Shown here: positions 23,946 through 37,544 of the stretch, one piece after another
How positions within the stretch are numbered: position 1 is the stretch's first letter
Layout: every line of letters starts with the position of its first letter
DNA from: a virus
IMG/VR virus record: IMGVR_UViG_3300029893_000037
Location: 1 to 38,416 of that record
DNA: 38,416 nucleotides
Strand: one strand, 5' to 3'
Translations under genes and position numbers: made by a program
The notes under the pieces: generated by a model
What the model was told of the DNA's origin: nothing
The model's database searches: none
What the model saw: only the letters and a program-made list of their open reading frames with translations

Positions 23946-24064
23946 ACGACGCCTTCTACCTCAAGCTCTTCGCCGTCATCGCCGTCATGGTCTGCGTCGT
24001 CACTGCGACCGTCTGCGTGCGCGACGTTCTGATCGAGCAGATTCGGTGCGAGCAGACGAAATGA
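23942..24064 (+). CDS. Small membrane protein of the lysis cluster (40 aa)
   Basis: MNDAFYLKLFAVIAVMVCVV followed by TATVCVRDVLIEQIRCEQTK: one hydrophobic segment and three cysteines. Overlaps both neighbours by 4 nt (ATGA). It could be a second holin or antiholin, or a spanin-like micro-protein; no lipobox is evident. Confidence 0.62.
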   Translation: MNDAFYLKLFAVIAVMVCVVTATVCVRDVLIEQIRCEQTK

Positions 24065-25737
24065 CAGGCTGGGTAGTCCGTCAATTCCGAGGCATTGCAC
24101 CACGGGCCGAACCGCGACTGCTGGCCGACAATCAGGCGCAGATCGCCGTTGATTGCAAGCTCTGGCATGGCAGCCTGCGGCCGCTGCACGACAACCTTGA
24201 GGTACTTCCGGCACTGCCCAAGGCAGGTACCGTCAAGAGCATTTACCGTTTTGGCAAAAGCACGGACAGCGACGTTCTCTACTGGTTCCACTGGCTGTAT
24301 GACACGGATGTGGTGCGCGGTTTCGTGGCCGGCGACGACTACGAGCGCACCTATTGGACGGGCGGCGGAACTGAGCCGCGCGTAACCAACTTCCAGCAGG
24401 CGACCAATGGCGGCAGCAACTACCCTGTGGCCAGTTGGACGCTTGGGCTTCCGCGCGGGGTTGCTCCGAATGTTGCCGTGGGCGGCACTGCTGGCGGCGA
24501 GCCGGAAGAGCGCACATACGTTTATTGCTGGGTGACAACGCTTGGCGAGGTCGGGCCGCCATCTGCGGCATCTGCCATCGTGACAGTTGAAAGCGGCCAG
24601 TACGTCGATCTTTCGGGAATCCCGGCTGTTCCGCCGACCGGAAACTACAGCATCGCCGGCAAGCGCATCTATCGCGCCACGGCGGGCACATACCTCTATG
24701 TTGCGGACATCAGCGCCGTGGCGACGACCTACCGCGACAGCATCCTGACGGCTGACCTTGGCGAGGAAATGGGTTCCCTGTGGTGGGACATGCCGCCCGC
24801 CGATCTGCAAGGGCTGGTTTCGATGCCGAATGGCATCATGGCCGGGTTCAGCGGCAAGGACATCCACTTCTGCGAGCCGTTCTATCCGCACGCCTGGCCG
24901 CAGAAATACATCCTGACCGTTGATGATGACGTGGTGGCGCTTGGCGTCCTCGATACCACGCTGATCGTCCTGACGAAGAGCTACCCCTACACCATCAACG
25001 GCTCGCACCCGGATTCCATGGTGATGGTCAAGGGACAGTTGCCGCAAGCCTGCGTTTCCAAGCGCTCTGTTGTGTCGGCCGGTGATGGCGTGATATTCGC
25101 CTCGCCGGACGGCATGTTCATGCTTTCATCGGCCGGCGCGCGCAACCTGACGGAAACCATGTTCACGCGTGAGGAATGGCAGACATTCAAGCCATCTTCG
25201 ATGCACGGCTACCTGCTCGACGGCAAGTACATCGGGTTCTACGACACGGGCGCGGTGCAGGGCGGGTTCATTCTCGATCTTGCCGGCGACATGACGCTGA
25301 TCGGCTTCTATGCCTCGGCCGGTTATTACGACCCGCAGCGCGATGCCCTGTTCTTGGTGACGAACGGCAACAAGCTCGTCAAGTTCGATGCTGCCAGCAC
25401 CTACCGGACGGCGCAATGGCGCTCGAAGGCGTTCTATCTGCCCAGCCCGCGCAATCTCGGCTTTGCCCGCGTCGAGGCATCCGGCTACCCGGTCACGCTC
25501 AAGACGGTGGCAACGCTAGCGAATGCGACCGAAGCAGCTGCCGTCGCCGCGGCTTACCCTGGCGTGGTGACGGCAAGCGGGAGCAAGATCATTTACACCG
25601 TCAGCGTGACGGATGATCGCGTGCTTGGTCTGCCGAACGGCTTCGCGGCGAAGGTGTGGGAGTTCGAGCTGTCCAGCCAGTTCGAGATTCTGTCTGCCGG
25701 CTTCGCTCAAACGGTGCGGGAGTTCTCGCGTGGGTAG
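24061..25737 (+). CDS. Large tail protein (558 aa)
   Basis: MTGWVVRQFRGIAPRAEPRLLADNQAQIAVDCKLWHGSLRPLHD is the characteristic start of a large structural protein family in podoviruses (xFxGxxPRxxPRLLxDxxAQxAxNxxLxSGxLxP). The rest is beta-rich and propeller-like (VSMPNGIMAGFSGKDIHFCEPFYPHAWPQKYILTVDDDVVALGVLDTTLIVLTKSYPYTINGSHPDSM; SKRSVVSAGDGVIFASPDGMFML). It probably forms the tail tube or hub below the adaptors. ATG at 24061 overlaps the preceding stop; it overlaps the fibre gene by 8 nt. Confidence 0.82.
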   Translation: MTGWVVRQFRGIAPRAEPRLLADNQAQIAVDCKLWHGSLRPLHDNLEVLPALPKAGTVKSIYRFGKSTDSDVLYWFHWLYDTDVVRGFVAGDDYERTYWTGGGTEPRVTNFQQATNGGSNYPVASWTLGLPRGVAPNVAVGGTAGGEPEERTYVYCWVTTLGEVGPPSAASAIVTVESGQYVDLSGIPAVPPTGNYSIAGKRIYRATAGTYLYVADISAVATTYRDSILTADLGEEMGSLWWDMPPADLQGLVSMPNGIMAGFSGKDIHFCEPFYPHAWPQKYILTVDDDVVALGVLDTTLIVLTKSYPYTINGSHPDSMVMVKGQLPQACVSKRSVVSAGDGVIFASPDGMFMLSSAGARNLTETMFTREEWQTFKPSSMHGYLLDGKYIGFYDTGAVQGGFILDLAGDMTLIGFYASAGYYDPQRDALFLVTNGNKLVKFDAASTYRTAQWRSKAFYLPSPRNLGFARVEASGYPVTLKTVATLANATEAAAVAAAYPGVVTASGSKIIYTVSVTDDRVLGLPNGFAAKVWEFELSSQFEILSAGFAQTVREFSRG

Positions 25738-27514
25738 GTCTGGTCTGCCTTCCATCATCAGCCAGATCCCTCTCGATCTGCGGCAGTTCCTTGATCGTGT
25801 CCGCGAATTCATCGACACGGCGAAGCGCGGCGACATGGCCTTTGTGACGCGCGAGGATCTGCTGGATTCCGGCATTGCCACGCCCGGGCCTGGAGACACG
25901 CTGTTGCCGGTTGCGTATGTGCTTGACACGACTCCACCGCCGACACCTTCCGGGCTGTTCGCCGCAGGCACGCTGACATCGATCTATCTGGCGTGGGATG
26001 CTCCTGGGTACGCCAACCACGGCTATACGCTGGTCTGGCGCTCGCAGGACAACAACTTCTCGAACGCGGTCGAAGTAGGTAGCTCAGCCTCGCGCCTGTT
26101 CACGGATTCGACCGGGATGGGCGTTGCTGCCTACTACTGGATTCAGTTCGTCAGCAAGGCTGGCGTGGCCGGCCCGGTGATCGGGAATGGAACAGGACAG
26201 AACGGTGTTTTCGCATCGACCAGCGGGACGGTGCCTGGTTCGCTGATCGCGGCAGAGTCCATTACCGGCGACAAGATTCTCGCGGGCGAAATCCTCGCCT
26301 CGCACATCTACACGCCGACGCTCGACGCAATCACGGCCGACCTTGGCGACATCACGGCCGGGACGATCACGCTCGACAATGCCGGATTCCTGCGCTCCGG
26401 AAACATCGCCTACTTCAACGGCAATGGCTTCTGGATGGGCTACCACATCGACGCCTACAAGATGTTCATTGGCGATGATGGCGGCGAATACCTCGACTGG
26501 AACGGCACGAACCTGACGATTAACACGCCAGAATTCCACTTGTCAGGCGGGAATGCGACGTTCTCGGGTGATCTGAGCGCGGCAACGGGAACATTTGCTG
26601 GTTCTTTGAATGCTGCAACAGGGACTTTTACCGGCTCGCTGCAAGCGGCCACCGGCACCTTCGCCGGATCACTGCAAGCGGCAGACGGCTTGTTCTCTGG
26701 TCAGCTTCTTGCCGCGACGGGCACGTTCGCAGGGTCGCTGGCCGCTGGTGTTATTAACTCATCGGCATTTGATTCGCTGCGCTACGAGTATGCCTCGCCC
26801 GGCTCATTCGAGTTGACTATACCGGCGATGAACGCGGGTTGGACCTCAATGAAAATGAGGGTGACCGTGCAAGGCGCAGGTGGTGGTGGCGGTGGTGGTG
26901 GGAGAGGTTTGTTTTGGAATGGTGAGGATTGGGTGTCGTTTTTTGGCGGCGGCGGCGGTGGTGGCGCTGGTAGTCGTGTTGTTTATGACAATATTGCCTG
27001 TACTCCTGGGCAGGGAGTGTCGATAACGGTCGGAGCTGGCGGTCTACCAGGTACTAGCGCGTACAGCGATAATGCATCAAATGGGTTGAGCGGTGGCGCG
27101 ACAAGTGTTTACTACGGGACCTCATACACGGCGACCGCGGGTACTGGTGGCGGTAAGTCTAGTAGTAGTAACGCAGCTGGTGTTGGTGGTGTGTTGGGCG
27201 GCGGTAATGGCAGCGCATCCGACAGTATTGGGTCTGGCGGCCGCGGGGGTGCGTCACAATACGGCGTCGGCGGACAGGGTGGATATGTTAACGCGCAAGG
27301 GCCAGTGCCTGCTGTAAGTGGTGGGTTGGGCTGTGGTGGTGGCGGCGGCGGGAGTACCGCAAACTTTCTTGTGCCTCCTGCATCAGGTGGCCCCGGCTAC
27401 GTCCTGATCGAGTTCTACGATCCGAACACGATCGTCCTGAATTCCCGCTACAGCAACCTGATTACCTGGCTGGATTCGATCGGCCATGGCGCCGTGCCGG
27501 AGAACGCGAGGTGA
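25730..27514 (+). CDS. Tail fibre with decapeptide repeats and glycine-rich tip (594 aa)
   Basis: Receptor-binding candidate. GTG start at 25730 (GGGAG upstream). N-terminal attachment part: SGLPSIISQIPLDLRQFLDRVREFIDTAKRGDM. Residues 60-160 resemble a fibronectin III-type domain (TPPPTPSGLFAAGTLTSIYLAWDAPG). Residues 200-270 include ADLGDITAGTITLDN and GYHIDAYKMFIGDDGGEYLDWNG. Residues 277-338 hold about six repeats of ATGTFAGSLQA, a beta-structured shaft. Residues 380-560 are polyglycine-rich (VQGAGGGGGGGGRG; SFFGGGGGGGAGS; GCGGGGGGS), like glycine-rich phage adhesin tips. This tip uses many GGT and T-ending codons, unlike its surroundings. Confidence 0.88.
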   Translation: MGRSGLPSIISQIPLDLRQFLDRVREFIDTAKRGDMAFVTREDLLDSGIATPGPGDTLLPVAYVLDTTPPPTPSGLFAAGTLTSIYLAWDAPGYANHGYTLVWRSQDNNFSNAVEVGSSASRLFTDSTGMGVAAYYWIQFVSKAGVAGPVIGNGTGQNGVFASTSGTVPGSLIAAESITGDKILAGEILASHIYTPTLDAITADLGDITAGTITLDNAGFLRSGNIAYFNGNGFWMGYHIDAYKMFIGDDGGEYLDWNGTNLTINTPEFHLSGGNATFSGDLSAATGTFAGSLNAATGTFTGSLQAATGTFAGSLQAADGLFSGQLLAATGTFAGSLAAGVINSSAFDSLRYEYASPGSFELTIPAMNAGWTSMKMRVTVQGAGGGGGGGGRGLFWNGEDWVSFFGGGGGGGAGSRVVYDNIACTPGQGVSITVGAGGLPGTSAYSDNASNGLSGGATSVYYGTSYTATAGTGGGKSSSSNAAGVGGVLGGGNGSASDSIGSGGRGGASQYGVGGQGGYVNAQGPVPAVSGGLGCGGGGGGSTANFLVPPASGGPGYVLIEFYDPNTIVLNSRYSNLITWLDSIGHGAVPENAR

Positions 27515-27518
27515 GGCG

Positions 27519-28160
27519 ATGACGCGCATTCTTGAAACCACCCTCGATGTCGCCACGATGATCTTGCGCAAGCGCGTGGCGCCCGCCGGTGCGCTGGCCG
27601 ACGTGGCGGTGCTGTGTCGCGTGGCGGACATTGCCGCGGCGAGCGATCCCGCCATCGATGCGGTGATCGATGCCTTCGACTGGGCTGGCGCGCACGGGGT
27701 GTACGTGCTCGACCTGGCCACGCAGACTATCGCGCCACAGGGCATGCCGCCGAGCGCGTGGCACGTGTGGGACTGGACCACGCTGGCGTGGGTCGACCCG
27801 CGCACGCTCGATGGATTGAAGGCCGACAAGAATGCCGAGATCAATGCAACGCGCGCCGCACTGAATACCAGCTCATTCATCCACGACGGCAAGACGTTTT
27901 CCTGCGATTCGCTGTCGCGGTCGGATATCGACGGCGTGAATGGGTACGTCGCGCTTTACGGTGTTCTTCCGCCAGACTTCCCCGGCGCATGGAAGGCCAT
28001 CGACAATTCGTACTACCCGCTTGCCGATGTTGCGGCATGGAAGGCTTTTTACGCCTCGATGGTGGCGGCCGGAACTGAGAATTTCATGCGTGCCCAGCAA
28101 CTCAAGGCACAGCTCGCTGCGGCGACGACGGCGGAAGAAGTGGAGGCCGTGCGGTGGTAG
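27519..28160 (+). CDS. DUF4376-like tail fibre-associated protein (213 aa)
   Basis: Start at 27519 with GAGGTGAGGC upstream. The N-terminal half is helical (MTRILETTLDVATMILRKRVAPAGALADVAVLCRVADIAAASDPAIDAVIDAFDW), then WHVWDWTTLAWVDPRTLDGLKADKNAEINATRAALNTSSFIHDGKTFSCDSLSRSDIDGVNGYVAL, which is the DUF4376 pattern. Such proteins follow tail-fibre genes and are thought to be fibre-assembly or minor fibre proteins. Overlaps the GNAT gene by 7 nt. Confidence 0.8.
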   Translation: MTRILETTLDVATMILRKRVAPAGALADVAVLCRVADIAAASDPAIDAVIDAFDWAGAHGVYVLDLATQTIAPQGMPPSAWHVWDWTTLAWVDPRTLDGLKADKNAEINATRAALNTSSFIHDGKTFSCDSLSRSDIDGVNGYVALYGVLPPDFPGAWKAIDNSYYPLADVAAWKAFYASMVAAGTENFMRAQQLKAQLAAATTAEEVEAVRW

Positions 28161-28573
28161 GCAATCAGGCCGCCATCGTCTTCGGCCCGGCTGTCATCCC
28201 GTGGCTTGAGCAGCAGCTTGGCCAAACATTCAGCGGCGAAGCGATCGGGCTTGGCCTCATGCGCGGAGATCAGTGGGTTGCCGGCGTGGCTTACCGCGAC
28301 CGGCAATACCACAACGTCAATGTTTCGCTGGTTGCCATGCCGGGCAGCCTGACGCGGCCATTCCTGCGGGCAATCCACGATTACCCGTTCAACTATCTCG
28401 GTGTTAATCGGGTGACTGCCCATGTCCGCCGCAGCAATAGTGACTCGATCAGCATCATCGAGCGTGTCGGCTTTCGCTACGAAGGCTGTCAGCGCATGGG
28501 CTACCCGGACGGCGAGGACAAGCTGATGTACGGAATCTTGCGCGAGGAATACAAATGGCCCGCATCACGATAA
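28154..28573 (+). CDS. GNAT-family N-acetyltransferase (139 aa)
   Basis: GTG start at 28154. Transfers an acetyl group from acetyl-CoA to an amine. Supporting features: VSLVAMPGSLTRPFLRAIHDYPFNYLGVNRVTAHVRRSNSDSISIIERVGFRYEGCQRM (55-115), where NRVTAHV is the beta5 strand, SIIERVGFRYEG the motif B helix and turn (xxExxGFxxEG). The usual R/QxxGxG/A loop for CoA is not conserved, so catalysis is less sure. Similar GNAT genes occur near fibre and ejection genes of other podoviruses; substrate unknown. Overlaps the radical SAM gene by 19 nt. Confidence 0.83.
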   Translation: MVGNQAAIVFGPAVIPWLEQQLGQTFSGEAIGLGLMRGDQWVAGVAYRDRQYHNVNVSLVAMPGSLTRPFLRAIHDYPFNYLGVNRVTAHVRRSNSDSISIIERVGFRYEGCQRMGYPDGEDKLMYGILREEYKWPASR

Positions 28574-29844
28574 ACACGGACAAAGGCCCGTACCAGTACG
28601 AAACGGACGGCTGCCTGCTGCTGGATCAGGACGGGAAGCGCGTCGATCTGTCCATGTTCGGCTACCGCGAGTATCTGGATGGCGAGGCGATCGACAATGG
28701 CCAGCCGGTGTTTTCGCTGGATGCTCCGCTGATCGGCAAGGAACAGCCGAAGATTCTGAAAATACAGCTTGGCCTCGGCTGCAACTACTCCTGCGCCTAC
28801 TGCTCGCAGGGCGGTCAGGTCGAGGACAAGACGTCGACGGACGATGCCCTGCGGTTTGTCGAAGGACTCGATGCGTGGCTGAAAGAGGATCCTGACAAGA
28901 TCGAGTTGTGGGGCGGCGAACCGTTGCTGTACTGGCACAAGATCAGGATTCTCGCCCCGGCGCTGCGGTATCGCTTTCCACGGGCGCGCATGTCGCTGAT
29001 CACCAACGGGACGCTGCTGACACGCAAGAAAGCCCTGTTCTTGCATGAACTCGGATTCACGATGGCAGTTTCGCACGATGGCCCTGGGCAGACGGTGCGC
29101 GGCGTGGATCCGTTCGATGATCCTCGCTGGTCTGCAATGATCCGCGATGTCGCCAAGCTGTTCGGGGATCGGTTCAGTTTCAACACGGTCATCACGCCGG
29201 GCAACTACGATCTCTTCAAGCTCATCATGTGGTTCGAGGCGCGCATGGGCGAGTCGGTCAAGGTCAATATCGAGAACGTGGCGACGGACTACGGCGGGGT
29301 GCCATGGCCAAAGCAGGAATTGAAGGCACTGGAAGCGGCCATGCGCGAACAAGTCGGCAGCGGACTGGCGTTCATGTTCCCGCGCATTCGCTGGGCGGCG
29401 CAACAGTTCCTCGAATCGCTGGTCATCCACAAGCCGCTGGCCGGATCGCATCAGGTGTGCAGTATGGACCGGAGGGATTACCTGGCCGTCGATCTGAACG
29501 GGCAGGTGCTGACGTGCCAGAACGCCGGGGCTTCATCTGGCCATGCCATCGGGCGGGTTGAACAGCTTGAATCGGTCGCATTGAAGGCGACGCCATGGAG
29601 CGCGCGGCCGCATTGCGGCGAGTGCCCGGTCGTCCATCTGTGCTACGGCTCCTGCATGCTCATCAATAACATGGCGGCGAACTTGAGTTCTGCCTGTGCT
29701 GCTTCCTACCATTACAACATGGGCATTCTTGCTGGACTCATCAAGCGCTTGACGGGCGCCGAAGTGCGCTCGGTGAGTGGCTATCGCCCTTCTTCCATTG
29801 TGCCGATCGTGGCCATTCAACATGACGGGGTAGCACATGCTTGA
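28555..29844 (+). CDS. Radical SAM enzyme with SPASM domain (429 aa)
   Basis: Uses a [4Fe-4S] cluster and S-adenosylmethionine to make a 5'-deoxyadenosyl radical. CNYSCAYC (Cys76, Cys80, Cys83) is the CxxxCxxC cluster site; WGGEPL (119-124) contacts SAM. A complete SPASM-type cysteine set follows: Cys302, Cys321 (CX13GX4C), CGECPVVHLCYGSC (Cys354, 357, 363, 367) and Cys381, enough for two auxiliary clusters. This is the arrangement of anaerobic sulfatase maturases and peptide-modifying (RiPP) enzymes, so a protein or peptide substrate is likely. It lies between the GNAT gene and an ejection-type gene, overlapping both, so it belongs to the tail operon rather than being an inserted moron. Substrate unknown. 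Confidence 0.93.
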   Translation: MARITINTDKGPYQYETDGCLLLDQDGKRVDLSMFGYREYLDGEAIDNGQPVFSLDAPLIGKEQPKILKIQLGLGCNYSCAYCSQGGQVEDKTSTDDALRFVEGLDAWLKEDPDKIELWGGEPLLYWHKIRILAPALRYRFPRARMSLITNGTLLTRKKALFLHELGFTMAVSHDGPGQTVRGVDPFDDPRWSAMIRDVAKLFGDRFSFNTVITPGNYDLFKLIMWFEARMGESVKVNIENVATDYGGVPWPKQELKALEAAMREQVGSGLAFMFPRIRWAAQQFLESLVIHKPLAGSHQVCSMDRRDYLAVDLNGQVLTCQNAGASSGHAIGRVEQLESVALKATPWSARPHCGECPVVHLCYGSCMLINNMAANLSSACAASYHYNMGILAGLIKRLTGAEVRSVSGYRPSSIVPIVAIQHDGVAHA

Positions 29845-30928
29845 TTACCTGAAACGCAAATTGCACCCGTTTGGCGGGTATCGCATGGACAGTGATTGCG
29901 CCTGCGCGGCGGCGCCTGACTATTCAGGTGTTGCCGCAGCCTCGAAGGAATCCGCCGAAATCATGGCGGCGCTTGGAAGGGAGCAACTGGCGGAAACCAG
30001 GCGCCAGTACGACCAGAACAGCGCGGTTGCCAGGCCGATTGTCGAAGGCCAAGCGGCCTTGATGGATCAAGCCATCGAGCAGGGCGACGACTACTACAGC
30101 TTCATGAAGGAATACGGCCGCCCGGTCGATATCGCTCTGCAGGAAGAAGCGATGGCGGCCGGCAGCCAGGCAGCGCAGGATGCGGCAGCCGGGCGCGTGC
30201 GTGGCACGATGGAAAAGGCGCAGGCATCGGAAGAGGCGCAGCAGAATCGCGCCATGGCCGGCATGGGCGTCAATCCGAATTCAGGGCGCTTTGCAGGATT
30301 GGCGGCTGCGCGCTCCGTGGCCAATGCGTCGAGTACAGCAGGGGCAATGGATTCGGCCCGGCAGACGGAAAAGAACCTCGGCTTCGCCAAGAAGCTCGAC
30401 GTGTCCGGCGTGTTCCGTGGCCTGCCTGGGGCTTCGCAAGGCGCGTACTCGGTGGCGAACCAGTCGGGCAATTCCGCAGTCGGCAACCAGATGGCGCCCA
30501 GCGGGCAGTTGTTGGCCGGCATGTCCAGTGCCGCAGGAATCACCGGGCAGGGTCAAGCCATGCAACTTGGCGGGCTGCAAAGCATCATGAACTCGCAGCA
30601 GGCGATCAACATCGCCAATGCGCAGATGATGAATAGCGGTGGCGGCGACCTTCTATCCGGGCTTGGCAGTATTGCAATGGGGGCCGGTGCGTTTGGGTGG
30701 AAGCCATTCTCCGACCCTGCGCTCAAGGAAAACGTCGTGCTGGTGGATGAATCGCCGCTCGGCTTCAACATTTACGAGTTCAACTTCAAGGGTGACGAAA
30801 CCCGCTGGCGTGGCGTGATGGCGGATGAGGTCGAAGAGGTCATGCCGGAAGCCATCACGATCGACTCGGATGGGTACCGCCATGTGAATTACGACATGAT
30901 CGGCATTGAAATGACGAGGGTCGAATAA
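29837..30928 (+). CDS. Ejection-type virion protein with C-terminal S74 chaperone-like domain (363 aa)
   Basis: The body (APDYSGVAAASKESAEIMAALGREQLAETRRQYDQN; AQQNRAMAGMGVNPNSGRFAGLAAARSVANAS) is the Ala/Gln/Gly-rich helical type of internal virion proteins ejected with DNA. The C-terminus, SDPALKENVVLVDESPLGFNIYEFNFKGD and RWRGVMADEVEEVMPEAITIDSDGYRHVNYDMIGIEM, is a Peptidase S74 intramolecular-chaperone domain (SDxxLKxxI ... YxF ... GVxAxEVExVxPEAV). The N-terminus holds a Cys-Ala-Cys motif (DSDCACAAAPDYSG) just before the body; as the gene after the radical SAM enzyme it is one conceivable substrate (inference only). Confidence 0.83.
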   Translation: MLDYLKRKLHPFGGYRMDSDCACAAAPDYSGVAAASKESAEIMAALGREQLAETRRQYDQNSAVARPIVEGQAALMDQAIEQGDDYYSFMKEYGRPVDIALQEEAMAAGSQAAQDAAAGRVRGTMEKAQASEEAQQNRAMAGMGVNPNSGRFAGLAAARSVANASSTAGAMDSARQTEKNLGFAKKLDVSGVFRGLPGASQGAYSVANQSGNSAVGNQMAPSGQLLAGMSSAAGITGQGQAMQLGGLQSIMNSQQAINIANAQMMNSGGGDLLSGLGSIAMGAGAFGWKPFSDPALKENVVLVDESPLGFNIYEFNFKGDETRWRGVMADEVEEVMPEAITIDSDGYRHVNYDMIGIEMTRVE

Positions 30929-32577
30929 TGGGTAAAGGTATCGGCAGGGCCATCGCTGGACTTGGTGCAGTCATGGCTGGATACGCCAAGGGCAAAATGC
31001 TCTATGAGGATCGTGAATTCGACAAGGAAAAGCAGGCGCGCGAACGGTTGAAGTGGGAGGACGAGGATCTTGCCCGCGGCGACAAGAAATCTGAGCGCGA
31101 AGCCTTCAAGAGCGGTATGGCTGATGGCCAGCCGATGAGCAACGGCGTCCCGCAGCCCAATGTTCCGGCGATGTCGCCCGATCCTGAAAATCCGTCGCTT
31201 GGGTCAGCGTTCAAGCAGCAATCCATGGCGCCGACAGAACAGGTGCCTACCGATGCGACCGGACTGGCCAATGCGCCCAAGACGCCGACCATGCTGGCGC
31301 ATGCCCAACGCTTGCTCAAAGGCTACGATGCGGCCATGACCAGCGCTTCGCAGCGCGGCGACGTGCAGAGCTTTGCGCGCAACTTCGATGCCTCGGCACA
31401 GGTTCGGGCCGTGGTGCGCGAGCAGATGCGCGAGGAAGCCGATCGCCAGCATGTGCTGACGGGCGGGACGGACTTCTCGATGTACGCCAAGATCTACAAC
31501 GACATGGTGAACGACGGCACGAACGTCGAAGTTCAGGCCGACAAGGATGGTGGCTATCGTCTTGTCGGCACGGGACGCGATGGCAGTCAGATCGACCGCA
31601 AGATCAAGGATGCGCAGGAAATGCGCGGACTGGTGAATCAGCTTTTCGATCCGAAGGCGATGCGTCAGCTGGAAATGCAGAAGGCCGCGAAGCTATGGGA
31701 GGCGGACGTCGACGTGCGCAAGCAGACTGCGATCGAGGGCGTCAAGCACGGCAATGCGGTCGAGTTGGAAAAGACCAAGGCTGGACTCAAGGAACCGGAA
31801 GTCGTCAAGCGCGGCATGGGCGAAGGCAAGCCGGATCAGGTCGGCACGCTCAAGGACGGCAAGATCAGCTGGCAGACTCCTGGCGATACACCGCCTGGCA
31901 GCGAACCGCTCGACAAGAAAACCACGGACGCCATGCGCACCACGATCATGGGACTCTACAAGGTGTCAGACATGGAATCGATGAGTCCGGATATTCGCCA
32001 GAAGGTCGGCAGTGCCTTGACGTTCGGATCGCAGCTGCTGCAGTCGAATCAAGGCATGGAGTCCGGCAAGCGCCTTGACATCAACACGGCGGCGAAGATC
32101 GCTTCCGACCTTGCCGATGGGTCGCTCAAGGAAATGCGATTCAATGACAAGGATGGAAACGAGTGGCGCGGCGTCGAGGTCGGCGGCGTGAGGTACGTTC
32201 TTGACCCGGCTCCTGTCAAAGCCGGCAAGCCTGGGCAGCGAGAGGTCACAGGCAAAATTGGCGATGCGTCCTGGAAAGTGTCAAAGGAAGAGCAGTCCAA
32301 GCGCGACAAGGTTGCCGGCGAACTCATCATCAAGGAACACGGCAGCGTCGAAAAGGCCAAGGCCGCACTGGCAGATATCGAACGCGAGCTGGCCAAAGCC
32401 AAAGACGGGACGCAGCGCAAGATCCTTGAGACTGAGCGGAACAAGATCAAGGCTGGACTGGCCAGTATTGAAGGCAAGCAGGCCGCGCCGAAGGTTGGTC
32501 AGGTGGTGGATGGATACAAATTCCTTGGCGGGGATCCGCGCGACAAAAACAATTGGTCACAAGTGGGGGCCGGATAG
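30928..32577 (+). CDS. Probable internal virion / DNA-ejection protein (549 aa)
   Basis: MGKGIGRAIAGLGAVMAGYAKGKMLYEDREFDKEKQARERLKWED is the standard start of podovirus internal proteins: a Gly/Ala-rich hydrophobic helix, then a charged helix. Most of the chain is helical and polar (EMQKAAKLWEADVDVRKQTAIEGVKHGNAVELEKTK; HGSVEKAKAALADIERELAKAKDGTQRKILETERNKIKAGLASIEG). No enzyme motif. It is placed as P22 gp20/gp16-type proteins are, between two other ejection-type genes. Its ATG overlaps the preceding stop by one base (TAATG). Confidence 0.78.
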   Translation: MGKGIGRAIAGLGAVMAGYAKGKMLYEDREFDKEKQARERLKWEDEDLARGDKKSEREAFKSGMADGQPMSNGVPQPNVPAMSPDPENPSLGSAFKQQSMAPTEQVPTDATGLANAPKTPTMLAHAQRLLKGYDAAMTSASQRGDVQSFARNFDASAQVRAVVREQMREEADRQHVLTGGTDFSMYAKIYNDMVNDGTNVEVQADKDGGYRLVGTGRDGSQIDRKIKDAQEMRGLVNQLFDPKAMRQLEMQKAAKLWEADVDVRKQTAIEGVKHGNAVELEKTKAGLKEPEVVKRGMGEGKPDQVGTLKDGKISWQTPGDTPPGSEPLDKKTTDAMRTTIMGLYKVSDMESMSPDIRQKVGSALTFGSQLLQSNQGMESGKRLDINTAAKIASDLADGSLKEMRFNDKDGNEWRGVEVGGVRYVLDPAPVKAGKPGQREVTGKIGDASWKVSKEEQSKRDKVAGELIIKEHGSVEKAKAALADIERELAKAKDGTQRKILETERNKIKAGLASIEGKQAAPKVGQVVDGYKFLGGDPRDKNNWSQVGAG

Positions 32578-32579
32578 TT

Positions 32580-35500
32580 ATGGCTAATCCATGGGAAAGG
32601 GATTGGCTGGCGCAAGAAGAGATTACGCAACCCGCAACCTCTGGACAATCGCCATGGGAACGTGATTGGGGAGTGGCGCCACTGGACGATAGCGCAGCAG
32701 CCATAGCCAAGCCGCAGAAGAACGCCTTTGGCGCGCGCATGCCGACGCAGGATGAGCTTGTGCCTGTTGAGGGCTATGAGGCGCCGAAGCCCAAGAGCGG
32801 AGATCGTGATGCGCTGACAACCACCACGGATACGCTCAAGTCCTTCGCCAAGGGTGCGGGGACGCTGACGAAGGGCATCGGTTGGCTGGCCAACAGCAAG
32901 AAGCTGGAAGAGATCGGCAAGAGCGCCGAGGAATATTGGGCCAGCAGCCAGTCAGACTACCTGAAAGAGAAGATCGCCAATGTCGAGCAGGCGGAAGGAT
33001 TTATCGGCAAGCTGTCAGCCTACATCGACAATCCGGCCGCGCTGGGTGACGCGATCGTGCAGTCCATCCCCATGATGGTGCCTGGGATGGGTGCGGGTGC
33101 GGTGGGCGCGCGCGCGGCTGGGGCAATTGCGTATCGCCTGTCATTGCGTGCCGGGGCGACGGCAGAAGTCGCGGCGGCAGCGGCGCAGAAGGCAGCGTTG
33201 CGCACGGCGATCGGGACGAACATCGCTGGCGAAGGCGCGATCTCTGGCGGGGCGACAGGATCGGATGTCGAGGGCTTTGCCAAGAGCAAGGGCGCGACCG
33301 ATGAAGAAGCGCGCTCGATGGCCAATGAAGCCGCGGTGAAGGCTGGGCTATGGACGGCGGCTGGTGCGGCGCTGGGTGCCGGCGTGGAATCGCGGGCCAT
33401 GCTTGGGCAGATGACGGACATGGGCGTGAAGGGCTTTGCCAAGACGGTAGGCAAGGAAGCCGGGGAAGAAATGATCCAGAACCCCGGCGAGAACTACGCG
33501 GCCTACGAGCAGAAGGTCAAGCTCGACCCGACACAGAAGTTCGACCTGGGCGGATCCATCGCGGAAGGCATGGTAACGGGCGGGCCGATGGGGGCCGGGT
33601 TCCATGTGGCTGGGGCGATCGGGTCAAAGATGGGCGCCCAGCGCGATCCGATCGACACGACGCCGGTTTCGCCCGATGCAGAAATCAGCATGGCGGATGT
33701 GGTGGGCGGGAAGCCCGAACCGGAGCAGCCACAGCAGGCGGAAATCAGGACCGACTCGCCGGATCTGCAGATGCAGAACCGCGACCGTGGCACGGCGGCG
33801 TCAGTGGTGCAGATGCAGTCGATCGCCAACGCGCCAGACTTCGATCGGCTGAACGCTTCCCCAATTGCCGACGTTGGGGCGCCGCTGGTATCCGTCAAAG
33901 ACAACGTGGACGAGGCGATCCAGCCGCGCGATACCGGGCATGGTGGGGAAATCACGCTGCCTGATGGCGCGAAAGTGAAGTTCCGCTATGCCGTGGTCGA
34001 TGCCGGGTCTATTCTGGCGTCCCATGATGTCAGCGGCCGGGCGAATCCGGACTACGGTGCGCCGCAATCCGGGCGGATCGTTGCGCTGACAAACGGCCGG
34101 GTGGCCGGATTGCAGGAAGCCTATGCCCGTGGCACAGCCACCGCCCCGGGCGGGTACATGGACCGGCTGCTACAGGACGGCGAGCAGTTCGGCATCGCCC
34201 AGGAGGCCATCACCGACAAGGAGGCGCCGGTACTGGTGCGCCTCTACGATGACGCCGTGAATGCGCGGCCGGATATCGGCCGGATGTCGAACGCGGGCGG
34301 CTCGATGCGCATGTCGGCGCAGGAAGTCGCGCGCAACGATGCGCGGATCCTGCCGGATGTCGGGAATATCGCCGTGACCGAATCCGGCGACATCGATACC
34401 CCTGAGAATCAGCCGTTCATCCGCGGGTTCGTGCAAGGCATTCCAGAAAGCGAGCGGGCCGAAGTGCTGGACAAGACCGGGCGCTTGTCACAGGTCGGAC
34501 TGCGCCGGATCCGCAATGCGATCATCCACCGCGCCTATGGCGAATCGTCCGTGTTCGGCCGGCTGGTTGAGTCGCTGGACAGCGGCATGGCCAATCTGTC
34601 GAAGGCGCTGGTACGGGCCGCGCCGAAGGTGGCCAAGGTCAAGGAACTGATGGCGGCCGGGGCGGCGCGCGACATGGACATCACGTCGACGCTGGTCAAT
34701 GCCGTGTCCGAGTTGGAGAACATGCGCCGGGATGGCATCAGCCTCGCGCAGTTCTTGGCGCAGGCGCGGCTGCTCGACAACATCCCCCCGGAACTGGTGG
34801 AAGTGTTGTCGTTCCTCGATGCCAACCTGCGGGCACCGAATCGGATCTCGGCGTTCATCGAGGGCTATTACCAGCAAGTCGAGGCGCTGGGCGACCCGCG
34901 CACGGCCGATATGTTCGGGGCGCCGGAAGTCAGCACCGGGCAGATGCTCACTACCGCCGCGCAGTCGGCACAACAGGAGGCACAAGATGGACTCGATGAA
35001 CCTGGCGCAATCGCTGGATCAGGCGCAACAGGAAGCGAAGGCATTGCCGCCGATGCAGGCGGAACTGCGGGCAGCGAAGTTGCGGAGAGCGTATCCGGCC
35101 CTGACCAGCCTGGTGCAGCAGTTGGCGAGCAACCCGCAAGCCCTGCAAGCAGTACAGAAGGCGCTTCCGCAGGAGTAGAAGATGGCGCAACGGGACGCGC
35201 CGATGCGGCGGTGGATCGTGAAGGCGCAGCGGCTGAACCTGATCAGCCCGCAGGAAGCGTGGCTGTTCAACGCCCTGTCGACGGCGGCAGATCAGATGCC
35301 GGACAATCAGATGGTCCTGCCGGAAAGTCTGTATCCGGCAGCCGCGAGGATAAGACTGCACGAACTGACGATCGGGGAGAGAAAGCAGTAGCGGGCACTG
35401 GCCAGAAGATTGTCGAGGAACTGAAACGCGCCAAGAAGAAGAAAGCGGCTGCACCAAGCGCGCAGACCGTAACGGCACCGCCGAAAGGCGAGGCCAGCCC

Positions 35501-37544
35501 TGCAGAACAGGCTACGCCTCTACCGGAATCAGGCGCAAACCAGCCTGTCGTACAGCCAAGCCAGCAGCCGGTTGCTGGTGAGGCACCAGAACAAGTTCGG
35601 ACGCAGCCCGCTGTGTCCGAAAAAGAGCAGGCATTGGCTGATCTTGGCGAAGGCATCGATGAACTGGTCAGCCTGCTGGGCGGTAAGACGAACATGCTGC
35701 CCGAGGAAGAGTCGCGCATCATCCCGGTGATGTCCAAGATATTCCGGGCAGCGGCCAAGCTCGGTTATATCGAGTTCAAGGCGGCGGGCCGGTTCGTTCT
35801 CGAACAGATCCGCGCCAAGTCGAAGGAAGTCGCGGACAAGCTATCGATCGACAACCTGCAGGCCGGGTACGTCAACATCGCCAAGGAGATCGGCGGCGAC
35901 AAGAAGGCGGCGCTGGCGATCGAGTCCATCGATGAACTGATGGCGGATGAGGATTCTGAGAGTGCCAACGAGTTTGTCATTGCCCCGGATGGCTCAATCG
36001 ACTTTGGGGAAATCAGCGCAGACCAAGCCAGGGTGATGAAACGTCAAGCCGGGAAGATCAGGCTTGAGCGTGGAGCTCACAATCAGGATGGCACTGGATA
36101 TGGCTTAGTTCATATCGAAGCCAAGCATGGGAAGCAAATTCGCAATGCTGGGTTCCAAAGCATAGAAGAGTTCATCGCCCATGTTGCCAGTGATTTCGGG
36201 GAAATCTGGCAGGCTACGGGAAGGCAGTTGCTTGTCGCCTATCGCGATGACGAACAGCACATGATGTATGTGCAGCTTGAACCAGCACGCGATGAGTCTG
36301 GCGACTATTACCGTGTGAATACCGCATTCCCGGTGCGCCAAATGGATTACCCGGAGCGGCATGGATTCAAGGAGGTGTGGCCGGCGAAGGATGGGAGCGA
36401 ACCCGCATCTTCTGCAACTGGACAGCAGCCCGCATTCGCAGTCGATCAGGATTCAAAGTCCAGACCTGCCGACCCCAACGCTCGCGGAAATGCCGCCGGT
36501 CACATTCCAACTATAGCCGAACATCCAATTCAAGGCAATATCGCTGACGCAGCCCATGAAGCCGCCACCAGCCAGAAGAACGATCTTCCGCAGCCGACGA
36601 CGGCACAGAAGGATGCTGGTAACTACAAGAAGGGGCATATCCGTATCAACGGATTCGATATCGCCATCGAGAACCCGGACGGATCCCAGCGCTCGAACTA
36701 CGATACCGAGGCCGTCAAGGCTCTCCATGCCGCTGCACAACATCCTGACATGCTGGGGATCAGCGACCAGCCGGCGCGGCTGATAGAAGCGGCTGCCGCG
36801 CAGGCATCGCTGGGCGACTACCACATGGCGCGCGTGCGACTGAATGAGGCGGCCGTGGCTGCCGGCAAGCATGTGGGCATGAAGGATTTGGACAAGCAGA
36901 TCAGCAGACTCGCGGCCGATACCTGGGTGGCCACCATGCCGCCCGGCGTGCATTACGGCTACCTCAAGCGTACCGAAGGGGCGGACGGCGATCAGGTCGA
37001 TGTCTTTGTCGGCCCGAATCCTGAGTCAAAGGTGTATTGGGTCATCAACCAGCGTCAGCCGGATGACACGGCACAGCCTGGCGACAGTACCGGAACCTTC
37101 GATGAACACAAGGTCATGCTTGGGTTCCTGCGTGGCGATGATGCCGTAGCCGCCTATCTCAAGTCGTTTGAGGGACGTTTCGGCAGCAAGGTGTTCATGT
37201 CGAGTTCGCCCATGAAGTCGATTGGCGAACTTGCAGCGGAACTGCCCAAGCTCAAGAAGTCGCGGCCCGTCAAGGCGGAGAAACCAGAACCCGCCCGCCG
37301 AGCTTTGGAATTGAAAAATGACAAGATACCATCGGCTGCGAGTGAAGCCATGGGTATCGCGCTGGCACCGGAGCATCGCCAGGCGCTCTACGCCGCACTG
37401 AAAGGCAAGGATCTGTCATTGACCGTCCGTATCGAGGACACTGGAGAAACGGCAAGGCTGGACATGGATGCTGCTGACGCGCTGCAGAAGTCTGACGAAC
37501 GTGTGAATTCCTTGACGCAACTGCTGGACTGCGTGAGAGGGTAG
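32580..37544 (+). CDS. Polyvalent ejected protein: DdrB-like, PBECR-like nuclease and InPase-like domains (1654 aa)
   Basis: Start ATG at 32580, just after the preceding stop. PWERDW occurs twice at the N-terminus. Residues 150-360 are Gly/Ala-rich and partly hydrophobic (SIPMMVPGMGAGAVGARAAG), as in proteins crossing the envelope. Residues 400-785 are DdrB/ParB-like (KFRYAVVDAGSILASHD; YARGTATAPGGYMDRLL; RRIRNAIIHRAYGE). A low-complexity linker (790-1010) follows. Residues 1130-1280 resemble the phage barnase/EndoU/RelE-like nuclease group (GYGLVHIEAKHGKQI ... MMYVQLEP). Residues 1345-1570 resemble the pyrophosphatase-like domain (GNYKKGHIRINGFDIAIENP; HYGYLKRTEGADGDQVDVFVGP; TFDEHKVMLGF). 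Such polyvalent proteins are thought to be injected to protect phage DNA or act on the host. Two small genes overprint the linker. Confidence 0.87.
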   Translation: MANPWERDWLAQEEITQPATSGQSPWERDWGVAPLDDSAAAIAKPQKNAFGARMPTQDELVPVEGYEAPKPKSGDRDALTTTTDTLKSFAKGAGTLTKGIGWLANSKKLEEIGKSAEEYWASSQSDYLKEKIANVEQAEGFIGKLSAYIDNPAALGDAIVQSIPMMVPGMGAGAVGARAAGAIAYRLSLRAGATAEVAAAAAQKAALRTAIGTNIAGEGAISGGATGSDVEGFAKSKGATDEEARSMANEAAVKAGLWTAAGAALGAGVESRAMLGQMTDMGVKGFAKTVGKEAGEEMIQNPGENYAAYEQKVKLDPTQKFDLGGSIAEGMVTGGPMGAGFHVAGAIGSKMGAQRDPIDTTPVSPDAEISMADVVGGKPEPEQPQQAEIRTDSPDLQMQNRDRGTAASVVQMQSIANAPDFDRLNASPIADVGAPLVSVKDNVDEAIQPRDTGHGGEITLPDGAKVKFRYAVVDAGSILASHDVSGRANPDYGAPQSGRIVALTNGRVAGLQEAYARGTATAPGGYMDRLLQDGEQFGIAQEAITDKEAPVLVRLYDDAVNARPDIGRMSNAGGSMRMSAQEVARNDARILPDVGNIAVTESGDIDTPENQPFIRGFVQGIPESERAEVLDKTGRLSQVGLRRIRNAIIHRAYGESSVFGRLVESLDSGMANLSKALVRAAPKVAKVKELMAAGAARDMDITSTLVNAVSELENMRRDGISLAQFLAQARLLDNIPPELVEVLSFLDANLRAPNRISAFIEGYYQQVEALGDPRTADMFGAPEVSTGQMLTTAAQSAQQEAQDGLDEPGAIAGSGATGSEGIAADAGGTAGSEVAESVSGPDQPGAAVGEQPASPASSTEGASAGVEDGATGRADAAVDREGAAAEPDQPAGSVAVQRPVDGGRSDAGQSDGPAGKSVSGSREDKTARTDDRGEKAVAGTGQKIVEELKRAKKKKAAAPSAQTVTAPPKGEASPAEQATPLPESGANQPVVQPSQQPVAGEAPEQVRTQPAVSEKEQALADLGEGIDELVSLLGGKTNMLPEEESRIIPVMSKIFRAAAKLGYIEFKAAGRFVLEQIRAKSKEVADKLSIDNLQAGYVNIAKEIGGDKKAALAIESIDELMADEDSESANEFVIAPDGSIDFGEISADQARVMKRQAGKIRLERGAHNQDGTGYGLVHIEAKHGKQIRNAGFQSIEEFIAHVASDFGEIWQATGRQLLVAYRDDEQHMMYVQLEPARDESGDYYRVNTAFPVRQMDYPERHGFKEVWPAKDGSEPASSATGQQPAFAVDQDSKSRPADPNARGNAAGHIPTIAEHPIQGNIADAAHEAATSQKNDLPQPTTAQKDAGNYKKGHIRINGFDIAIENPDGSQRSNYDTEAVKALHAAAQHPDMLGISDQPARLIEAAAAQASLGDYHMARVRLNEAAVAAGKHVGMKDLDKQISRLAADTWVATMPPGVHYGYLKRTEGADGDQVDVFVGPNPESKVYWVINQRQPDDTAQPGDSTGTFDEHKVMLGFLRGDDAVAAYLKSFEGRFGSKVFMSSSPMKSIGELAAELPKLKKSRPVKAEKPEPARRALELKNDKIPSAASEAMGIALAPEHRQALYAALKGKDLSLTVRIEDTGETARLDMDAADALQKSDERVNSLTQLLDCVRG
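34987..35178 (+). CDS. Overprinted small gene inside the polyvalent gene (63 aa)
   Basis: Lies in the +1 frame relative to the polyvalent gene. ATG preceded by AGGAGGCACAAG, a near-perfect ribosome site. The product is a regular amphipathic helical protein, beginning MDSMNLAQSLDQAQQEAKALPPMQAEL and ending LVQQLASNPQALQAVQKALPQE, with codon use like normal genes. In contrast the polyvalent frame here encodes only Gly/Ala/Ser/Asp-rich linker. Short Gln/Ala/Leu helices like this are common among minor virion proteins. Function unknown. Confidence 0.65.
   Translation: MDSMNLAQSLDQAQQEAKALPPMQAELRAAKLRRAYPALTSLVQQLASNPQALQAVQKALPQE
35182..35391 (+). CDS. Second overprinted small gene (69 aa)
   Basis: Same +1 frame, 3 nt after the first overprinted gene; AGGAGTAGAAG lies directly before its ATG. 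The product MAQRDAPMRRWIVKAQRLNL, then ISPQEAWLFNALSTAADQMPDN and MVLPESLYPAAARIRLHEL, is an ordered helical protein with hydrophobic residues spaced as in a folded domain. The WIVKAQRLxLIxPxEAxLF pattern resembles acyl-CoA dehydrogenase C-terminal fragments but too short to assign. Expression needs to be shown. Confidence 0.6.
   Translation: MAQRDAPMRRWIVKAQRLNLISPQEAWLFNALSTAADQMPDNQMVLPESLYPAAARIRLHELTIGERKQ

Follow-up and report, generated by a model that had tools for sequence, protein, structure and literature searches.

The 38.4-kb (38,416-nucleotide) virus record analysed here in full, IMGVR_UViG_3300029893_000037 of IMG/VR (hereafter the window), is by its gene content a Bcep22/PBC5-like podophage, whose late genes include one for a radical S-adenosylmethionine (SAM) enzyme with a SPASM domain. 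Our data point to this enzyme as, probably, a phage maturase whose substrate is a virion protein from a nearby gene, in which it modifies cysteines of short alternating Cys-X-Cys motifs (Asn, Ala or Asp being the commonest X). In most relatives it would act at a tail-fibre C-terminus that is either free from the outset or, we infer, uncovered when a Hint or S74 domain cleaves itself off. For the window and those nearest to it, the likely target is a D[C/S]DCACA stretch at the N-terminal end of a virion/ejection-type structural protein (VP) encoded directly downstream.

Central to this reading is a link, visible from both sides, between the enzyme family and proteins with alternating cysteines. 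Alignment-based scans of viral and bacterial contigs recovered about 240 enzyme genes (127 representatives), whereas a single-sequence scan of viral contigs returned no relatives of the enzyme; plasmid relatives were limited to weak matches. The forward survey took 86 enzyme clusters (70% identity), each with at least 4 kb of upstream sequence, and looked for an open reading frame (ORF) on the same strand with CxCxC or triplet-spaced cysteines, up to 5 kb upstream or 3 kb downstream. Such an ORF was present on the enzyme's strand in 68 clusters and on the other strand in 11; when at least four cysteines were required, the counts were 54 and one. Several of the remaining 18 clusters (L063, L047, L294 and L067) carry a shorter or interrupted cysteine motif.

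The reverse survey was blind to the enzyme. It used an (Asn-Cys)4 DNA pattern in viral contigs and retained ORFs of at least 60 amino acids with the motif no more than 20 residues from the C-terminus, provided that 4 kb or more of sequence followed them; all its figures refer to the matches listed. An enzyme gene lay on the same strand within 6 kb for 54 of 54 C-terminal (Asn-Cys)4 proteins, at a median distance of 1284 bases, and these comprise 31 non-redundant proteins and 28 enzyme clusters. Near loci where the pattern was out of frame the enzyme was found in 0 of 15 cases, and near non-terminal motifs in 0 of 2 (Fisher p = 2e-12 for the non-redundant set, phylogeny ignored). Judged from gene neighbourhoods, an association of the enzyme family with Cys-X-Cys virion proteins is highly probable. 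As relatives of the enzyme usually stand beside a Cys-repeat tail or virion protein, these phages probably modify parts of their own particles. The alternating-cysteine neighbour is a property of the family; its counterpart in the window is the weaker motif DCAC in VP.

The proteins that carry the motif are themselves informative. Most homologues of the enzyme have in their vicinity a virion protein, for the most part a tail fibre, in which cysteines alternate with other residues, as in NCNCNCNC or CACDCNC. Among 63 motif proteins, 248 of the 282 spacers between cysteines (88%) are Asn (130), Ala (73) or Asp (45), and in 46 proteins the motif lies within 20 amino acids of the C-terminus. Assignment to PHROG families makes them mainly tail fibres, and Pfam finds Shufflon_N in three and collagen repeats in two. 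Nearly all of the internal motifs among 17 proteins read by hand run into a Hint domain (CFPAGT...), and one runs into an S74-like segment; in L038, L062, L066, L142, L143, L007 and others the motif terminates at the first cysteine of that Hint domain. Judging from the type of domain, self-cleavage by Hint or S74 would leave the motif as a new C-terminus, and in some loci it could take the place of a leader-removing protease. The short leader-core precursor of a ribosomally synthesised and post-translationally modified peptide was not found: the proposed targets run to some 70-620 amino acids and many match tail-fibre PHROGs. Among relatives with a name, Achromobacter phages JWF and 2-1 come closest (the JWF protein is about 39% identical); in both, the enzyme gene comes two genes after that of a tail fibre in which CNCDCNCNCSC or CNCDCNCSC precedes a Hint domain. 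Their enzyme belongs to the same family, phrog_1802; the window member differs in standing between an acetyltransferase (GNAT) gene and VP, and in having a short N-terminal motif beside it.

The enzyme itself is intact. Its sequence matches Radical_SAM in Pfam (1.6e-11), TIGR04085, the SPASM domain of NCBIfam (29.4 bits against a cut-off of 27), and, over residues 61-403, phrog_1802 ('radical SAM domain-containing protein', 7.9e-51), to which it therefore belongs. The radical SAM motif is C76-x3-C80-x2-C83 and the SPASM pattern is full (C302-x13-G-x4-C321 / C354-x2-C357-x5-C363-x3-C367 / C381), in agreement with the superfamily definition of CxxxCxxC plus CX9-15GX4C-gap-CX2CX5CX3C-gap-C. These ten cysteines are 98-100% conserved in the 127 representatives and invariant in a 97-row alignment. 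The AlphaFold2 model is confident (predicted local distance difference test, pLDDT, 91.7; predicted template-modelling score, pTM, 0.90), and its best solved matches in Foldseek are anSME (top, anSMEcpe), CteB, ChlB, TigE, SkfB and SuiB. Query-normalised TM-scores of about 0.40-0.57 make the fold class clear and do not fix the exact reaction. A profile search against solved proteins gave TigE (8vpo) at 2.4e-23, anSME at 2.3e-17 and CteB at 4.1e-17. On the predicted structure, the nearest solved relatives are peptide- or protein-maturing SPASM enzymes. This, together with the two-way link to Cys-X-Cys proteins, lends support to the original prediction, made from the DNA alone, that the enzyme matures a virion protein.

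That prediction had also described a complete SPASM enzyme overlapping a GNAT gene upstream and an ejection-type gene downstream within the morphogenesis genes, and in this it was correct. Positions 28154-30928 hold exactly three consecutive genes on the + strand – GNAT, enzyme and VP – with overlaps of 19 and 8 nucleotides, and the ten cysteines are intact; the gene after VP starts at 30928. Recombination and replication genes come first in the window, followed by those for terminase, portal, major head protein, internal virion protein and tail fibres, then this module, and then a 1663-amino-acid protein. The G+C content is uniform (enzyme 0.598, VP 0.610, window 0.605). In relatives without the enzyme GNAT and VP adjoin directly or nearly so, and the enzyme is thus inserted between the two. 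The proposed joint action of enzyme and acetyltransferase is not supported: in 11 podophages without an enzyme match, a VP-type gene follows a GNAT of this family, pairs that rule GNAT out as an obligate partner, and a partnership is further unsupported because the enzyme elsewhere stands beside tail-fibre genes, as in JWF. The features are collected in Table 1.

Table 1. Coordinates of the module and of related features in the window.
Feature	Position	Strand	Basis
GNAT (phrog_4470), 139 aa; older podophage neighbour of VP, not an enzyme-specific partner	28154..28573	+	PHROG match, podophage neighbourhoods
Radical SAM/SPASM maturase (probable function), phrog_1802 family, 429 aa	28555..29844	+	Pfam, NCBIfam, PHROG, alignment, AlphaFold2, Foldseek
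Radical SAM cluster motif C76-N-Y-S-C80-A-Y-C83, codons 76-83	28780..28803	+	Three Cys conserved in 127/127 representatives
Seven-Cys SPASM region, codons 302-381 (C302, C321, C354, C357, C363, C367, C381)	29458..29697	+	98-100% conserved (127 representatives); TIGR04085
Virion/ejection-type structural protein VP, 363 aa; proposed substrate	29837..30928	+	phrog_8003, phrog_4287, borderline S74
D-C-A-C-A, VP codons 20-24; candidate modification site	29894..29908	+	D[C/S]DCACAxxPDYS in all clade proteins; 11 enzyme-free homologues Cys-free
Tail fibre with glycine-rich C-terminal part, no Cys-X-Cys motif; rival target	25613..27514	+	Pfam/PHROG and motif scan
Internal virion protein phrog_511, marks the podophage structural module	24046..25737	+	PHROG match, E 4.6e-142

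A critical issue is the identity of the target in the window. VP matches phrog_8003 (virion structural protein, 6.2e-32) and phrog_4287 (DNA ejection protein, 6.3e-10), and falls just short of a Peptidase_S74 domain (21.8 bits, gathering 22). It has two cysteines, both inside the motif, and among the late proteins of the window it alone contains CxC; the long repeat occurs in none of them. The phylogeny and the survey of neighbours that the original prediction had called for were both carried out: the enzymes of the window, L285 and L016 form one clade (SH-like approximate likelihood ratio test, SH-aLRT, 100) on a long branch inside the family, and neighbours with the cysteine motif recur. The prediction had held that unrelated neighbours together with a known small-molecule substrate would count against it; in so far as this was checked, neighbours do differ among phages, yet the cysteine motif is common to them. 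The N-terminal D[C/S]DCACAxxPDYS of VP is kept in all proteins of the clade (window, L016, L285/L286, L366), whereas the VP-type proteins of podophage relatives in which the enzyme search gave no match are free of cysteine in 11 of 11 cases. Enzyme and VP cysteines thus appear together. At the DNA level the DCACAxxPDY pattern occurs in 4 contigs of 2.9 million, with the enzyme adjacent in 3. From these sequence comparisons VP is probably the target of the window enzyme. Two further markers were set aside: DCDCACA alone was dropped as too unspecific in DNA, and a leader MxxYLKxKLxPFGG at the start of VP in the window and L016 was not used, being absent in L285. No match to the VP motif was found in 715 bacterial genomes of two orders, which may not be those of the host, so this search is uninformative.

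A number of observations weigh against the proposed role. Members of the family without the motif exist, and one bacterial subgroup (Variovorax, Ramlibacter and others: L084, L089, L092, L097, L098) has no cysteine motif at all; its inspected members L084, L092 and L097 adjoin an ATP-grasp-like gene and a gene for a 770-amino-acid protein. The window motif consists of two cysteines at an N-terminus, as against long C-terminal repeats elsewhere, and the evidence for its clade comes from a handful of sequences, of which L285 and L286 are nearly one phage (Fisher p = 0.0007, kinship ignored). L366, an incomplete fragment of 16.9 kb, has a DCDCAC protein and no enzyme within the fragment, and the DCDCACA coding pattern also turns up by chance in small ORFs without an enzyme. 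Curated maturase models, PapB, anSME and others, score the enzyme far below their cut-offs: 61.1 of 340 bits for the PapB-type ranthipeptide model NF047865 and 34.6 of 349 for the anaerobic sulfatase maturase model TIGR03942. It is accordingly not filed with these enzymes, though it may still work like them. Finally, the modification of cysteine is a prediction from the genes, and its chemistry a proposal.

The mechanism that we envisage has four steps. Enzyme and substrate would be made from overlapping genes, a layout that is observed; SAM would then be cleaved and a hydrogen abstracted from a residue near the cysteine, as the class of enzyme implies; the cysteine sulfur would bond to that carbon, giving thioethers from Cys to Asn or Asp (perhaps Ala) comparable to those of freyrasin and NxxcA; and the linked segment might – most speculatively – staple, rigidify or cap the end of the protein on the particle, be it a fibre or an ejected protein. 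Thioether formation is a tentative proposal, drawn by analogy, with a little less than an even chance of being right. Beta-thioethers suggest themselves because Asn and Asp are spacers, because beta-carbon thioethers from Cys to Asn (NxxcA) and from Cys to Asp (freyrasin) are known (PMC8326336), and because PapB accepts Cys-Xn-Asp with n = 0-6, so that adjacent Cys and Asp are tolerated (PMC9413430). The PapB, CteB and NxxcB ranthipeptide maturases likewise combine radical SAM and SPASM domains, CteB, which forms thioethers, is among the nearest folds, and the juxtaposition of Cys with Asn or Asp involves the residues that are joined in NxxcA and freyrasin. Those enzymes work on small leader-core peptides, whereas the substrate proposed here is a structural protein of the virion that carries the motif at, or close to, one of its ends; the Cys-to-Asp/Glu beta or gamma thioethers that characterise the PapB type (NF047865) are for the window enzyme a precedent only.

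The same enzyme could act on the same target by another chemistry. Formylglycine formation as by anSME, epimerisation and the alpha-carbon thioethers of sactipeptides are alternatives that would produce a reactive aldehyde or an altered backbone. All are performed by SPASM or related radical SAM enzymes of similar fold, the best structural match is anSMEcpe, which acts on Cys or Ser of a full-size protein, and the profile matches anSME as well. We nevertheless consider these reactions rather unlikely: the cysteines of the family's targets are repeated and no C-x-[P/A]-x-R sulfatase motif surrounds them, the preference for Asn, Asp and Ala spacers suits Asn and Asp as known beta-thioether acceptors, and the TigE and CteB profile matches are about equal to or better than that of anSME.

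Should the enzyme of the window act on some other late protein, with the DCAC of VP incidental or metal-binding, the obvious candidate would be the glycine-rich tail fibre, which like the usual targets in relatives is encoded upstream of the enzyme. This we judge improbable, given that the fibre contains no CxC and that the cysteines of VP are confined to this clade and sit in a conserved segment. Less probable still is that the repeats act, unmodified, as tips that bind metal or form disulfides and that the enzyme, co-inherited with the fibre cassette, serves a host protein, a small molecule or a cofactor. Runs of Cys-X-Cys may bind metal, and the loci do contain other accessory enzymes (2-oxoglutarate–iron (2OG-Fe) oxygenase-like genes in 50 of 127, with 2 of 3 sampled members matching PF13759, and Trp halogenase-like genes in 8), but the link is two-way and extends across very different fibre proteins, and the nearest SPASM relatives act on peptides or proteins. 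A role in auxiliary metabolism or counter-defence, unrelated to the virion – viperin-like, for instance, as a weak match to NF038283 (40.7 of 180 bits) might hint – is scarcely credible in view of the enzyme's full seven-Cys SPASM domain, its place inside the virion module and its association with the cysteine motif.

With the maturase reading preferred over these, we think it reasonably likely that the genes define a system widespread among phages and so far undescribed: a dedicated radical SAM enzyme, in some cases accompanied by 2OG-Fe oxygenases, covalently remodels the Cys-X-Cys ends of fibres or ejected proteins and so gives mature virions non-canonical residues or cross-links where the host is contacted or entered. 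The class of enzyme is known; the substrate and the setting are apparently new. Radical SAM cassettes have been reported in the host-recognition/tail-fibre region of pelagimyophages (PMC7029224), and the passages of that report that concern them differ in linking no cysteine motif or substrate to the cassettes. In the open-licence literature we found no description of fibre modification by a phage radical SAM enzyme, of NCNCNC repeats or of a Cys-repeat virion substrate, which is weak evidence of novelty. If the reading is correct, those parts of the virion that touch the host or pass into it bear modifications installed by an enzyme, and the chemistry of peptide maturases reaches beyond small natural products, to structural proteins of viruses. 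It would also explain the odd Cys-repeat terminus of many tail fibres and reveal a new way to make or tune binding tips.

The neighbourhoods of the enzyme hold further features. Oxygenase and halogenase neighbours (L004-L162, L285-L362) suggest multi-enzyme modification cassettes, and a conserved family of 240-300 amino acids lies upstream of the enzyme in 62 of 127 loci (for example L325:4503-5300), with no Pfam match in the members tried. The enzyme has four strong matches in the single genome L105 (Magnetospirillum sp. SS-4), one of them interrupted by a stop codon, which suggests several prophages or copies. In Parasutterella, a divergent member of the family has three tandem ORFs with triplet-spaced cysteines (CSYCSYCTYC) in its vicinity, at L152:5506-6902. 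L016, the close relative of the window, has a reverse-transcriptase-like ORF (L016:5358-6344) upstream of the module that possibly belongs to a diversity-generating retroelement. In the window itself, the 1663-amino-acid protein (32553-37544) shows patchwork matches to giant phage proteins, including DarB-like and virion structural families.

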